The notes under the pieces were generated by a model. The model ran no database searches, was not told the DNA's origin, and saw only the letters and a program-made list of their open reading frames with translations. From positions 1 to 35,474 of the forward strand of contig CAUJIB010000031.1 in NCBI GenBank assembly GCA_963205245.1: DNA of 35,474 bases. Reading direction: 5' to 3'. Source of the DNA: Pseudomonadota bacterium (GTDB taxonomy: Bacteria; Pseudomonadota; Alphaproteobacteria; Rickettsiales; SXRF01). This document shows positions 14,021-19,528 of this stretch, piece by piece; the stretch's first letter is position 1, and the number at the start of each line of letters is the position of its first letter. The translations under genes and the position numbers were made by a program.

Positions 14021-14539
14021 ATGATAGATCTAAAAGATGTGTATCCGGAATTGAATAATGTTCTAATGGATTTGGTAGATTATAGTAGAAAACAGAATAA
14101 TAGCATAATCTTGAAAAATAAAGCTGAGCAGGAGGTTGTAGAGCAGTTAGGGCTTAGTGCTTATGGGGATGGCTATCCAAAAGTTAGTGTAAATTTTCGC
14201 GAGAACAGAGAAAATAGTAATACTGATGCTATTGAATTAAAATTATCACGTTCAGCTCATGATAATCGTGTGGTTAGTTTTTCATTACACGAAAACGGAT
14301 CACAAAAAACATTTGATGCCGAGCAGATTCTAAAAGGATTACAAGAAATCAGAGGTAAAGGAATTAAGCTTGCTATGGAGTTTGTGACATATCAAGGTAA
14401 AAACCTTGATTTGCCGGTTGAGTTAGATCCTGTGATAAAGAAAATTCAGCAGGGAATCAGCCAGAAAATAGGTGGTGATATTGGGGAAGTTAATAATGTT
14501 AGCGCAAATAAATTTTCTGGGGAAAAAATTATAGGCTGA
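14021..14539 (+). CDS. Hypothetical soluble protein
   Basis: A 172-residue protein of unknown family. It has no signal peptide or membrane helix, and composition is normal. An N-terminal helix ([18 protein letters not shown]) is followed by strand-like segments ([38 protein letters not shown]), then a helix ([22 protein letters not shown]). The start has GCAGGTAA upstream. It converges on lptB with an 11-base overlap of the coding ends, occupying the place where many Alphaproteobacteria carry rpoN after lptB. Confidence 0.7.
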
Positions 14540-15368
14540 ATCTTTCCCCAAGATATACGCGGCGGACATCAACATTATTTACTATTTCTGCCGGCGTGCC
14601 TTCCATAAGGACATAACCGTCATGCATTATATAAGCGCGGTCAATAATGTCTAAGGTCTCACGCACATTATGATCAGTTATTAACACGCCAATGCCACGG
14701 TTTTTCAAGTGTTTTACAAGGCCGCGAATTTCTTCAACCGCTATTGGGTCAATACCGGCGAGTGGTTCATCAAGCAATATAAATGATGGTCGGCTGGCAA
14801 GGGCGCGGGCAATTTCTACCCGTCTGCGTTCTCCGCCGGAAAGGGTAATGCCTTGGGCGAGGCGGAGATGGGTTATAGAGAATTCAGCTAGTAATTCATC
14901 AAGTTGTGCGTGCCGTGAATCCAGATTTTTTTCATGTATTTCTAAAACGGATAAAATATTCTGCTCTACTGTAAGTCCGCGGAAAATAGAAGCTTCCTGC
15001 GGAAGGTAGCCAATACCCTGACGGGCGCGGCGATACATCGGCAGGCGGGTTATGTCCTCACCATCTAGAAATATTTTGCCAACATCTGGAGTAATGAGGC
15101 CGGTAATCATATAAAAGCATGTAGTTTTTCCTGCCCCGTTTGGCCCTAATAACCCTACGGCTTCTCCGCGTCTGACCCGTAGGCTCACATCACGTACCAC
15201 CGGTCTGCCGCTATAACGTTTTCCTATATGTTGTGCTTCAAGCCCATTATGAGTGGTTACAAGCCTCGGTGCGTTTGTTTGCCCTGAAAATTGTTCACTG
15301 GAAGATTCAGCAGTGGTTTTCAGCTTTTTACGGGGAGCATTTTTATTTTTGAATAATGACATGACCAT
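14529..15368 (-). CDS. lptB: LPS export ABC transporter ATP-binding protein LptB
   Basis: The ATPase that powers LPS extraction from the inner membrane with LptFG and LptC. Walker A is GPNGAGKTT (about residues 75-83), the signature is [15 protein letters not shown] and Walker B is [13 protein letters not shown]. The [20 protein letters not shown] stretch is characteristic of LptB. I chose the ATG at 15368: GGAAAGG overlapping the lptA stop precedes it. A longer start at 15407 would overlap lptA by 32 bases. The ~40-residue extension before the ABC core is Lys/Ser-rich. It is the last gene of the rnd-kdsD-lptC-lptA-lptB run. LptF and LptG are not in the window. Confidence 0.95.
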
Positions 15369-15375
15369 AATGCTA

Positions 15376-15984
15376 CTACCTTTCCTTCTTGAAAGGAACT
15401 TTTTCATCAGAATTTGGGACGAATAATGCTTTTACACGCTGCTTTTTGTCCGGATCTTTTGAGTTAGCTGAGTCAGATGAGGTAAGTTCGCTTTTGCCGG
15501 TATCAAAATCATAAACTAGTTTATTGCCTTTAAGTACGTTTTTATCGCGTGTTAGAACCACATTATCATTAAGATAAATCTTTTTATCTATCACATTATA
15601 TATACCATTTGCGCCGCTGGCTGTTTCTTCAGGAGTGGATAAAAAAACATTTTTTTCTACTATAATTTTTTCTATGGAGTTTTTCTCTGAAGCAGCAGGG
15701 GGGCTAATTAGAGATTTTTTAGCGGGTTTTTCTGCATTTTTTTCAGATTGTTTGTAAAAAACAACCATTTTTTCAGATTTTATTTTAACATTATCCTGAG
15801 TGGCAATTACATGTCCGGTAAAAATTGCTTTATTCTCCTGCTGCAAGACCTGAAGAGTATCAGAAGTTATCTCAATTGGTGCATTGGTTTTATGTTTGTC
15901 ACTGTTGTTTGCGGCATAGGAATGCTGTGTAGTGCTGATTAGCACTAGTGCCGAAATTGCCGATAATAAATTTTTATTTTTCAT
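15376..15984 (-). CDS. lptA: LPS transport periplasmic protein LptA
   Basis: An OstA-like periplasmic bridge protein of about 202 residues. The signal peptide is [23 protein letters not shown], with cleavage probably after SYA. The mature part begins with the family motif [41 protein letters not shown], the first beta-jellyroll strands. Later [28 protein letters not shown] repeats the fold. It has an inserted Lys/Ser-rich stretch in the middle (about 85-110). The ATG at 15984 is chosen, with a GTG two codons earlier as the alternative. It sits 20 bases after lptC and just before lptB. Confidence 0.88.
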
Positions 15985-16004
15985 AAACACACCGAATTAA
16001 CCTA

Positions 16005-16577
16005 CTACCTATACAACAACATTCTTACCGAACCGTTAAAATTTATAATATTTCCGCGCTCCAATATAGTGAAACTATTAGCTTGTATGGTGCCGGCTCC
16101 GCCTTGCCCCTCTATATGTTGATTGCCTTTTACCATACCCTTAACTGTATCAATATGCGCACTTTCAGTACGGAACTGATACCCGCCCTCATAAAATATC
16201 TCAACTCCTTTTGAGAGCTCCATTTGCTTTGTTATCGTATTCATTTCACCATAGCCGGAATTAAGTGCCATCCATGCGTTATTATCTCCGGTCATTTCGG
16301 AGTTAATATTATTAAGGGTAACGGTGTCCTTATCTTTTTGTAGACCTGTTTCTGCCTCAATAGTGTAGGGGCGGTTATGAATGTCAACACCGTGATATTT
16401 AGGCTTTTTCATTATATTCTGGGTTTCTTCAGTTTTTTGTGCGCTGGTAAATACCATCCTGCCCCCATTGTCAGCATTATTATTGGAAGCAATCCAGATA
16501 ACCAACGCTATTATCCCTAATGCCATTAGCGACAAAAAATTTTTTCCAAAAAAAACAAAGCGCGTATATTGTTTCAT
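16005..16577 (-). CDS. lptC: LPS export protein LptC
   Basis: A bitopic inner-membrane protein that passes LPS from LptBFG to LptA. One N-terminal membrane helix (SLMALGIIALVIWIA) is followed by a periplasmic jellyroll with the LptC pattern: PKYHGVDIHNRPYTIEAETG, then LNNINSEM, GYGEMNTITKQMELSKGVEIFYEGGYQFRTESA. The ATG at 16577, after the kdsD stop, gives 190 residues, the usual length. A longer frame from 16610 would start inside kdsD. The order kdsD-lptC-lptA-lptB is standard. Confidence 0.9.
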   Translation of the reverse strand: MKQYTRFVFFGKNFLSLMALGIIALVIWIASNNNADNGGRMVFTSAQKTEETQNIMKKPKYHGVDIHNRPYTIEAETGLQKDKDTVTLNNINSEMTGDNNAWMALNSGYGEMNTITKQMELSKGVEIFYEGGYQFRTESAHIDTVKGMVKGNQHIEGQGGAGTIQANSFTILERGNIINFNGSVRMLLYR

Positions 16578-16585
16578 ATGATTTA

Positions 16586-17548
16586 TTAGGCAATGCCAGA
16601 CCGAAGGCAATCATGAATATGTAAAATACCGACAGCTTTCCCATTGTCTGTTACGAATAATCCGGTAATGGAATGTTGGTTCATTATGGCAAGAGCTTCT
16701 GCTGCCAGAGCTTGTGGGCGAATAGTAAGGGGAGAATTTTTCATCACCTGACTTGCGGTTTTTTCCAGTAAATCCGGCTGCATGTTACGGCGTAGATCGC
16801 CATCGGTAATAATGCCTGATAAGTTGCCTATCTTATCTATAACTCCTGCACAACCAAAACGTTTTGAAGTCATAACAAGTAATATATCGCGCATTAAATC
16901 ATCTTCTTTTACAAGCGGCAGTTCGTCGCCTGAATGCATTAAATCCATAACCCGTATAAAGGCTTTGCCAAGCTTGCCGCCCGGATGGAATACAGAAAAA
17001 TCCTGTTTGTTGAAACCGCGTCTAGAAACTAGAGCAACGCTGATTGCATCTCCAAGTGCCAGCATCATAGTAGTTGAGGTAGTTGGTGCGCCTGTAATGC
17101 AGGCTTCTGGAGTTTCTGGTAAAACCATTGCTATATTTGCAGCATCAACCAGCATTGATCCTTTGCGGCGAGCAACTCCAATAAGTGGTATAGAAAAACG
17201 TTTGCAATAAGCGATTAAATCGGCAAGTTCTGCGGTTTCGCCTGAGTTAGAAAATGCCAGCACAGCGTCATCTTTGGTAATCATTCCCATATCGCCGTGG
17301 CTTGCTTCGGCAGGATGGACAAAATGGGCTGGTGTGCCGGTAGATGCCATAGTTGCTGCAATTTTACGGGCAATATGACCACTTTTTCCCATTCCGGTGG
17401 TGATTACCCGCCCTTTTATATTAGCAATGGCTTCCACCGTATCGGCAAACGGCTCTCCCAGTTCTTCTATCAGGGCTTGCAGGCCCTTGATTTCCTGTGC
17501 TAAAACAGCTTTGCCATGCTCTATATCGGTATTTTTATTTGTCATCAT
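16586..17548 (-). CDS. kdsD: D-arabinose-5-phosphate isomerase
   Basis: It converts ribulose-5-phosphate to arabinose-5-phosphate, the first committed step to Kdo. The SIS domain (about 30-170) includes GMGKSGHIARKIAATMASTG and HPAEASHGDMGM. The tandem CBS domains (about 200-320) include MTSKRFGCAGVIDK with GIITDGDLRRNM, and IMNQHSITGLFVTDNGKAVGILHIHD. The 320-residue length matches KdsD/KpsF. Its substrate could come from the pentose pool that rpe, just upstream in the window, helps balance. It lies 28 bases after rnd and slightly before lptC, so it is part of the LPS operon. Confidence 0.95.
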   Translation of the reverse strand: MMTNKNTDIEHGKAVLAQEIKGLQALIEELGEPFADTVEAIANIKGRVITTGMGKSGHIARKIAATMASTGTPAHFVHPAEASHGDMGMITKDDAVLAFSNSGETAELADLIAYCKRFSIPLIGVARRKGSMLVDAANIAMVLPETPEACITGAPTTSTTMMLALGDAISVALVSRRGFNKQDFSVFHPGGKLGKAFIRVMDLMHSGDELPLVKEDDLMRDILLVMTSKRFGCAGVIDKIGNLSGIITDGDLRRNMQPDLLEKTASQVMKNSPLTIRPQALAAEALAIMNQHSITGLFVTDNGKAVGILHIHDCLRSGIA

Positions 17549-17576
17549 CAATACCTGTTAAAGTGCCCATAATTTT

Positions 17577-18191
17577 TTAGCTATGTGCGAAAATATCTTC
17601 ATTCTCCCAGCCAGCCAGATCTAATTCTGCACGGTAAGGCAAAAAATCAAACGCGGCTTCGGCAAGTTCTGTTCTTCCTTCACGCGTAAGCATATCATCC
17701 AATTTTTCCTTGAGTTTATGTAAGTGCATAACATCTGAGGAAGCATATTCTATTTGTTCATTTGTCAGGGTTTGTGCTCCCCAATATGAGCTTTGCTGTT
17801 GCTTGGAAACATCAATGCCCAGCAATTCTTTGCAAATATCTTTATAACCATGCCTGTCACTGTAAGTGCGCACCAAACGTGAAGCTGTGCGGGTACAATA
17901 AACATTGCTAAGCCTGATCCCGATATAATGGCGCATTATGGCTAAATCAAAGCGGGCAAAATGGAAAATTTTAATACGTTTTGGGTCAGTCAATAGTTTT
18001 GTCAAATTGGGAGCGTTATATTCTCCATTTCTAAACTGTACTAAATGAGCATTGCCATCACCATTGGAAAATTGTACTAGGCAGAGCCTGTCACGCTTGT
18101 TATTCAATCCCATAGCTTCAGTATCAACAGCTAGGTCGCCGTCAATAATAAAATCTGCTGGCAGGTCGCCAATATGAAGAGTATTAGTAAT
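17577..18191 (-). CDS. Ribonuclease D-like 3'-5' exonuclease with probable ATT start
   Basis: A DEDD-family exonuclease resembling the single-domain RNase D proteins of Alphaproteobacteria (no HRDC domain), acting on RNA 3' ends. The first ATG of the frame (18113) would lose the Exo I motif. Reading upstream in frame gives LHIGDLPADFIIDGDLAVDT then EAMGLNN, which contains the catalytic Asp and Glu of Exo I (D23 and E25). The only start that restores it is ATT at 18191, 7 bases after AAGGAG. An in-frame TAG lies at 18207-18209 with no ATG, GTG or TTG between. With this start the protein is 204 residues, with D82 in HFARFD (Exo II) and Y149/D153 in YASSD (Exo III). The upstream part matches related N-termini from memory. 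It is followed by kdsD. Confidence 0.88.
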   Translation of the reverse strand: MTNTLHIGDLPADFIIDGDLAVDTEAMGLNNKRDRLCLVQFSNGDGNAHLVQFRNGEYNAPNLTKLLTDPKRIKIFHFARFDLAIMRHYIGIRLSNVYCTRTASRLVRTYSDRHGYKDICKELLGIDVSKQQQSSYWGAQTLTNEQIEYASSDVMHLHKLKEKLDDMLTREGRTELAEAAFDFLPYRAELDLAGWENEDIFAHS

Positions 18192-18204
18192 AAAAAATCT
18201 CCTT
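18189..18204 (-). promoter_or_regulatory. Ribosome-binding site that decides the ATT start of the RNase D-like gene
   Basis: On the minus strand AAGGAG (18204-18199), a 7-base A/T spacer, then ATT (18191-18189). It is the best Shine-Dalgarno upstream of the frame and points to the non-canonical start. Confidence 0.7.
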
Positions 18205-18284
18205 AACTAGTTACAGTTATTTATATATTGGGATTATGCTGAAAATCCAGCCAACAGCAAGAGTTTTTAATTGAATTTCCATAT

Positions 18285-18329
18285 AAAAAATACGCCAGAA
18301 TCCGGTGAGGGAATTCTGGCGTATTTTTT
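18285..18329 (-). terminator. Strong terminator after the His/Lys-repeat gene
   Basis: A 17-base perfect arm (AAAAAATACGCCAGAAT at 18285-18301) pairs with 18313-18329. A-run and T-run flank it, so it could work on both strands. It lies between the end of the 18348 gene and the RNase D-like gene. Confidence 0.85.
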
Positions 18330-18347
18330 GTGATTAAAATCTAATTA

Positions 18348-18587
18348 TTACTTAGATTCTTCTACTGCAGAAGCTTCTGTTTCAGCAGCTTCTTTTTCCG
18401 CGTGCTTTTTAGCATGTTTTTTAGCATGTTTTTTAGCGTGTTTTGCTTCAGCTTTAGCATCAGCTTTAACATCTGTGGTTTCAGTTGCAACAGCAGCGGT
18501 AGCAGCGTCTTTATGTTCGGCAGCGTGAGCCAAAGAAATAGGAGCTACAAGAGCAAGTGCAAGAGCAAGAGCGGAAAGTTTGTTCAT
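18348..18587 (-). CDS. Small exported Ala/His/Lys-repeat protein
   Basis: 79 residues. A clear signal peptide (NKLSALALALALVAPISLAHA, cleavage after AHA) is followed by an Ala/Glu/Asp/Lys stretch. Then come about four copies of His-Ala-Lys-Lys, encoded by a 12-base tandem repeat, and an acidic tail. The mature protein has charge blocks and no predicted fold. The composition resembles acid-shock (Asr-type) periplasmic proteins, but this is only compositional. The His-rich part could bind metal or acidic surfaces. It has AAGGAT before the ATG and its own strong terminator, suggesting an abundant monocistronic mRNA. Confidence 0.75.
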   Translation of the reverse strand: MNKLSALALALALVAPISLAHAAEHKDAATAAVATETTDVKADAKAEAKHAKKHAKKHAKKHAEKEAAETEASAVEESK

Positions 18588-18698: not shown

Positions 18699-18875
18699 TT
18701 AATGTTGGGTCGGGTCTTGTCCGTCAAAATTTTCCGGTATTTCATCGTCTTCAACAGCTGGCACGCTATATTCGCTCTGAAGCCATTTTATAAGGTCAAT
18801 GTTGGCACAATGTCTGGAACAAAAAGGGGCAGTTTCTTTAACGGTTTTTTTGCCGCATACAGGGCATTTATTCAT
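18699..18875 (-). CDS. yacG: DNA gyrase inhibitor YacG family zinc-ribbon protein
   Basis: A 58-residue gene found by translating the gap after rpe. The product begins [14 protein letters not shown], then [18 protein letters not shown], giving the four-Cys zinc ribbon C4-x2-C7 and C19-x3-C23 of YacG. An acidic tail ([14 protein letters not shown]) follows, as usual in the family. E. coli YacG binds GyrB and blocks DNA binding. The ATG overlaps the rpe stop by 4 bases (ATGA), so translation is coupled. The more common alphaproteobacterial neighbours of yacG (maf, rng) are absent. Confidence 0.92.
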
Positions 18876-19528
18876 GAGCGTAAATTAGCGATGTTTTTTG
18901 CGTAATCAGAAACATTGCCGGTAAATACAGCCGATCCTGCGACTAATACGTTTGCTCCTGCCTCTATAGCTGATTTTGCGGTTTGTGGGTTGATTCCGCC
19001 GTCAATTTCAAGATCAATATTACGGCCGGTTTTATTAATCATATCTCGCAGCACTCTGGTTTTGTGTAGTTGCGACTGAATAAAAGATTGTCCACCGAAT
19101 CCCGGATTGACGCTCATAACCAATATTAAATCCACGTCATCCATTACATATTCCAGCGCAGAAGTCGGCGTGGTTGGCACCAATGAGACGCCGCATTTTT
19201 TACCGAATGATTTTATAAGCTGCAGCGTACGGTTCAGGTGAGTGGTTGCTTCAGCATGGACGGTGATAATATCAGCCCCAGCCTTGGCATAAGCTTCTAT
19301 AAACTGGTCAACCGGTTCAATCATTAAATGTACATCAAAAATAAGCTGGCTGTGCGGCCTGATAGATTTAATAACGACAGGGCCAATGGTCAGGTTTGGC
19401 ACAAAATGTCCGTCCATAACGTCCACATGTATATAATCAGCTCCAGCTTTGGTGATGGCAGAAATTTCTTCACCCAAACGGGAAAAATCAGCTGAAAGGA
19501 TAGAAGGTGCAATTTTTATCTTGTTCAT
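18872..19528 (-). CDS. rpe: Ribulose-phosphate 3-epimerase
   Basis: It interconverts ribulose-5-phosphate and xylulose-5-phosphate in the pentose phosphate pathway. A TIM barrel of 218 residues, the normal length. Signatures are [17 protein letters not shown] at the N-terminus, [17 protein letters not shown] (metal-binding His and Asp), [20 protein letters not shown] and DLEIDGGIN near the end, followed by the phosphate-binding [12 protein letters not shown]. It forms a two-gene unit with yacG (4-base overlap). Confidence 0.97.

Follow-up and report, generated by a model that had tools for sequence, protein, structure and literature searches.

Comparative evidence for a conserved AUU, AUC or AUA start codon of nrnC in an order of Alphaproteobacteria, probably Rickettsiales

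ATT start codons are rare, and infC is the classic case, with AUU in Escherichia coli, AUC in Streptomyces and AUA in Staphylococcus aureus. To our knowledge, good support for an AUU, AUC or AUA start (hereafter AUH, or ATH in DNA) exists for only a handful of bacterial genes other than infC and pcnB. Both infC and sigR are repressed by IF3 (PMC5472188). In S. aureus, AUU and AUA starts with a strong Shine-Dalgarno (SD) sequence yield about 10% of the output of AUG, with ccpN reaching up to 30% in rich medium (PMC13009471). The AUU start of E. coli pcnB, encoding poly(A) polymerase, is thought to limit the level of the enzyme (Binns and Masters 2002, as cited in PMC13009471).

In this work we focused on the start codon of nrnC. 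In Alphaproteobacteria, NrnC forms octamers that degrade dinucleotides, and it can take the place of Orn where tested (PMC11706625). With infC, nrnC shares an AUH start that is conserved, comes with a good SD and is kept as non-AUG across lineages; IF3 acts on its own gene, whereas no feedback of NrnC on IF3 is known. Both pcnB and nrnC start with AUU and encode RNA-processing enzymes, but pcnB is another gene in another lineage. The S. aureus genes cvfC1 (AUU) and ccpN (AUA) share with nrnC a conserved AUH codon and a strong extended SD, and cvfC1 is also the first gene of its operon; their starts were shown by ribosome profiling and reporters (PMC13009471), whereas that of nrnC is supported by comparison. 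Streptomyces sigR likewise combines a non-canonical start with an extensive SD in a gene other than infC, but its start is GUC, a first- and third-position change, and its control by IF3 is experimental (PMC5472188), whereas for nrnC we infer it. No earlier report of an AUH start for nrnC or rsfS was found in the open-access literature. Such a start is thus apparently new for nrnC, and of a kind already known from infC, pcnB, cvfC1/ccpN and sigR.

The nrnC gene of the window and its neighbours

The window is the whole stretch of 35,474 nucleotides that was analysed. Its nrnC gene comprises the following features.

17577..18191, minus strand: nrnC coding sequence, 204 amino acids plus stop, with an ATT start, a frame open from the TAG below, a full-length match to solved NrnC and a conserved aligned start
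18189..18191, minus strand: ATT start codon of nrnC, from the sequence and the alignment with relatives
18199..18204, minus strand: SD sequence AAGGAG of nrnC, 7 nt before the ATT
18207..18209, minus strand: in-frame TAG, the upstream limit of the nrnC frame, 15 nt upstream of the ATT
18111..18113, minus strand: first in-frame ATG of nrnC (codon 27), with no SD in front; a start here would cost D23 and E25

On the minus strand the 5' region reads TAG TTA AGG AGA TTT TTT ATT ACT AAT ACT CTT CAT ATT GGC GAC CTG ... GTT GAT ACT GAA GCT ATG(18113). A first-pass annotation of this DNA had described an RNase D-like gene starting at an ATT 7 bases after AAGGAG, in a frame open back to a TAG and free of ATG, GTG and TTG, with its catalytic Asp and Glu upstream of the first ATG. 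All of this was borne out on reading the sequence: AAGGAG (18204-18199) precedes ATT (18191-18189), the frame between the TAG (18209-18207) and the ATG at 18113 contains no ATG, GTG or TTG, and the catalytic D23 and E25 (DTE motif) are encoded upstream of that ATG.

The label "RNase D-like" could be sharpened. The 204-residue product matches solved NrnC structures over its full length (Inquilinus NrnC 9qth, E = 1.5e-82; NanoRNase C 7mpr, 1.7e-70; 7mpr/7mpl about 1e-70), and its match to RNase D (1yt3) is weaker, at only 6e-6. The DEDDy residues D23, E25, D82, Y149 and D153 are invariant in an alignment of 18 sequences, as are D9, L10 and P11. With the NrnC enzymes of Bartonella, Brucella and Inquilinus (PMC11706625; PDB 7mpr, 7mpl, 9qth) the protein has in common full-length homology, the DEDDy residues, an HFxRFD motif and a C-terminal FAH. 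By homology, it is NrnC (nanoRNase C, a DEDDy dinuclease), a single-domain protein of about 200 residues with predicted activity. A weaker match lies in a longer frame elsewhere in the same genome, presumably a long RNase D.

The standard open reading frame listing gives nrnC as a 178-residue protein from the ATG at 18113, without D23 and E25. Gene callers miss AUH starts, and nrnC would here be called 26 codons short and deprived of two catalytic residues.

Further features on the same strand surround the gene.

16586..17551, minus strand: KdsD-like gene (SIS + CBS), directly downstream of nrnC
16005..16610, minus strand: LptC-like gene
15376..15990, minus strand: LptA-like gene
14529..15407, minus strand: ABC ATPase gene, LptB-like by position
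18283..18330, minus strand: strong terminator-like hairpin with a T run, between an upstream small open reading frame and nrnC (fold -25 kcal/mol, z -6.8)

The position at the head of an LPS operon, also proposed in the first-pass annotation, agrees with the LPS-transport genes (SIS + CBS KdsD-like, LptC, LptA and ABC ATPase) found directly downstream. Because the hairpin is terminator-like, nrnC is likely the first gene of its transcript. A consensus scan for a promoter upstream of nrnC gave nothing useful.

Two small frames lie further upstream on the minus strand. The first (18348-18587) encodes 79 residues with a signal-like N-terminus and a lysine-, alanine- and histidine-rich repeat (HAKKHAKKHAKKHA), and has no Pfam match; the second (about 18700-18876) carries a CPVCGK...FCS..C pattern and looks YacG-like by motif.

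Start codons and SD sequences among relatives

The start region of nrnC was compared between 121 members of the window's order (probably Rickettsiales) and 105 alphaproteobacterial loci outside it, the aligned start position being taken 8 codons before the conserved D-L-P. Within the order this position holds ATG in 43 genes, ATT in 19, ATC in 15, ATA in 14, GTG in 10 and TTG in one, the start being shifted in 19; outside, it holds ATG in 71, GTG in 15, TTG in 5, another codon in 14 and ATH in none. ATH thus occupies the aligned codon in 48 of the 121 genes of the order, or about 45 once three dubious cases are removed. Set against canonical starts, this gives 45 versus 54 inside the order and 0 versus 91 outside (p = 5e-16, with relatedness ignored, the genomes not being independent). 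While nrnC starts with ATG, GTG or TTG outside the order and with ATT in the window, ATH starts were found in 13 of the 25 families and 31 of the 82 genera sampled of the order. The comparison with close relatives suggested in the first-pass annotation yielded ATH in 12 of the 15 genes of the window's family, all three congeners among them.

In eight genomes, two of them single-contig (G264, G285), the whole stretch from the in-frame stop to the catalytic Asp is free of ATG, GTG and TTG. An additional in-frame ATG, GTG or TTG occurs within 12 codons upstream in 7 of the 45 ATH cases, and there the SD is spaced for the ATH codon. Between congeners, codons 2-26 of nrnC differ mostly at third positions (0.26, 0.11 and 0.47 differences per codon at positions 1, 2 and 3); by this pattern they evolve like coding sequence. 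As judged by these comparisons, AUH is a recurrent and conserved start of nrnC in the window's order. We consider it practically certain that the AUU is the start codon of nrnC in the window, as the first-pass annotation had proposed, its position, SD and codon class being conserved in relatives.

The AUG found in nrnC outside the order suggests that the AUH start is derived, probably from AUG. Mapping AUH onto the NrnC tree takes a minimum of 19 changes, compared with 36.6 in shuffles; by this measure the state is clustered but labile, and the change count gives no direction.

The two start types differ in their SD. An SD core precedes 47 of the 48 ATH starts (mean duplex -8.5 kcal/mol, spacing 6-8 nt), versus 13 of the 43 ATG starts of the same order (mean duplex -2.9 kcal/mol). 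A rank test of SD strength gave p = 2e-10, a value inflated by relatedness; restricted to the six independent pairs that well-supported branches provide, the comparison favoured the association by about 3.6 to 0, with a median p of 0.125, which is not significant. Among families with both start types, the SD is stronger on the AUH starts in 8 of 9.

AUH starts in rsfS and infC

In 21 nrnC neighbourhoods, 13 of 119 orthologous genes had no canonical start close to where homology begins; 12 of these were nrnC and the other was an alignment artefact. In a sample of 591 conserved open reading frames, drawn from four genomes of the family (mainly two of them), only nrnC and rsfS showed a conserved SD and ATH with no adjacent ATG. 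Most other frames that seemed to have no start proved to be antisense shadows or to carry an ATG a little way into the frame. General laxity in start codons was rejected on these sampled genes.

The rsfS gene (ribosomal silencing factor) of the window's genome (L441:8499-8891, G000:C34; Pfam RsfS 1.6e-30) reads TAA GTT AGG AGA ATT ACC ATA GTT around its start. Each of the 14 rsfS genes read in the family starts with ATA, ATC or ATT behind AGGAG (loci including L399-L425). Outside the order, a semi-automatic list read by eye gave an SD-preceded ATH without a good canonical start in at least 7 of the roughly 24 rsfS genes that could be read; for infC, about 26 of 29 such genes had an SD-preceded ATH, mostly ATA or ATC. 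Within the window's family, by contrast, the infC codon is ATG in each of 13 genomes, and this ATG comes without a strong SD. The infC loci of this comparison include L258, L304-L308 and L479-L508. These distributions suggest that the AUH starts of infC and rsfS are old in the Alphaproteobacteria, that nrnC is a recruit of the window's order, and that infC exchanged its AUH start for AUG in the window's family. In the first 30 infC genes, AUH seemed to occur in either infC or nrnC and never in both; with more genomes this failed, both genes having AUH in f7, f12 g191, f10 g218/g39, f2 G016 and some of f23.

Initiation at AUU and competing explanations

By analogy with infC, S. aureus cvfC1/ccpN and Streptomyces sigR, initiation of nrnC is probably weak and IF3-sensitive. 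The initiator tRNA (fMet) would start nrnC at AUU with the help of the strong SD; the near-cognate AUU would be unstable in the 30S P site, where IF3 would select against it. NrnC synthesis would then lie well below the output of AUG with the same SD, and would rise whenever there is little IF3 for the number of 30S subunits. Control by RNA structure around the ribosome binding site was rejected: the 56-nt region gave a fold no more stable than those of its shuffled versions (z 0.13). The conserved AUH starts suggest that cells hold NrnC production back on purpose. The first-pass annotation had cautiously proposed that the codon may tune this RNA-degrading enzyme, which agrees with the known cases.

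Such restraint might instead be constant. The AUU could set a low, steady NrnC level, as proposed for pcnB, with IF3 varying too little to matter and a strong SD with AUH being interchangeable with a weak SD with AUG. The apparent compensation between SD and start in 8 of 9 mixed families and the interchange of AUH and AUG at least 19 times on the tree speak for this explanation, as does an infC with ATG and no strong SD in the window's own family; indeed, the exchange of strong-SD AUH for weak-SD AUG in several relatives fits plain level tuning as well as IF3 control. However, if the level were all that counted, a weak-SD AUG, GUG or UUG would do equally well, which leaves it unexplained that 12 of the 15 family members keep AUH and that rsfS has it as well. 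We regard constant tuning as a serious possibility, although somewhat less than an even one.

The company of infC and rsfS favours an IF3-responsive set. We tentatively propose, while considering it rather unlikely in this full form, a small alphaproteobacterial translational set with AUH starts (infC, rsfS and, in the window's order, nrnC), whose translation would go up when IF3 is scarce relative to 30S, and which in the window's family infC would have left and nrnC joined. If true, it would link subunit anti-association (IF3, RsfS) to the last step of RNA breakdown (NrnC). The three genes in any case form a concrete, testable set for asking whether IF3 is a regulator beyond its own gene.

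That translation begins at the ATG of codon 27, the frame upstream being untranslated, is very improbable. This codon is the first in-frame ATG, but no SD precedes it, and a start there would remove the invariant D9, L10, P11, D23 and E25; moreover, codons 2-26 diverge like coding sequence, and relatives from outside the order carry an ATG precisely where the ATT stands here. Still less credible is a sequencing or assembly error hiding an ATG, or a start decayed in this genome only: the assembly behind the window is a draft in 97 contigs, but the same codon is ATT, ATC or ATA in the three congeners and in about 40 further genomes, single-contig ones included, which excludes the error that the first-pass annotation had named as a possible refutation and refutes this explanation for the lineage.

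The pcnB gene was rejected as a further AUH gene of the window's family, its pcnB-type genes having ATG, GTG or TTG candidates. In three genomes of the family, two PolyA_pol (PF01743) matches lie about 1.2 kb apart, the second much weaker (G005:C2, L391 and L396; G010:C15, L395 and L397; G008:C3, L386 and L398); these may represent a duplicated or neighbouring nucleotidyltransferase.
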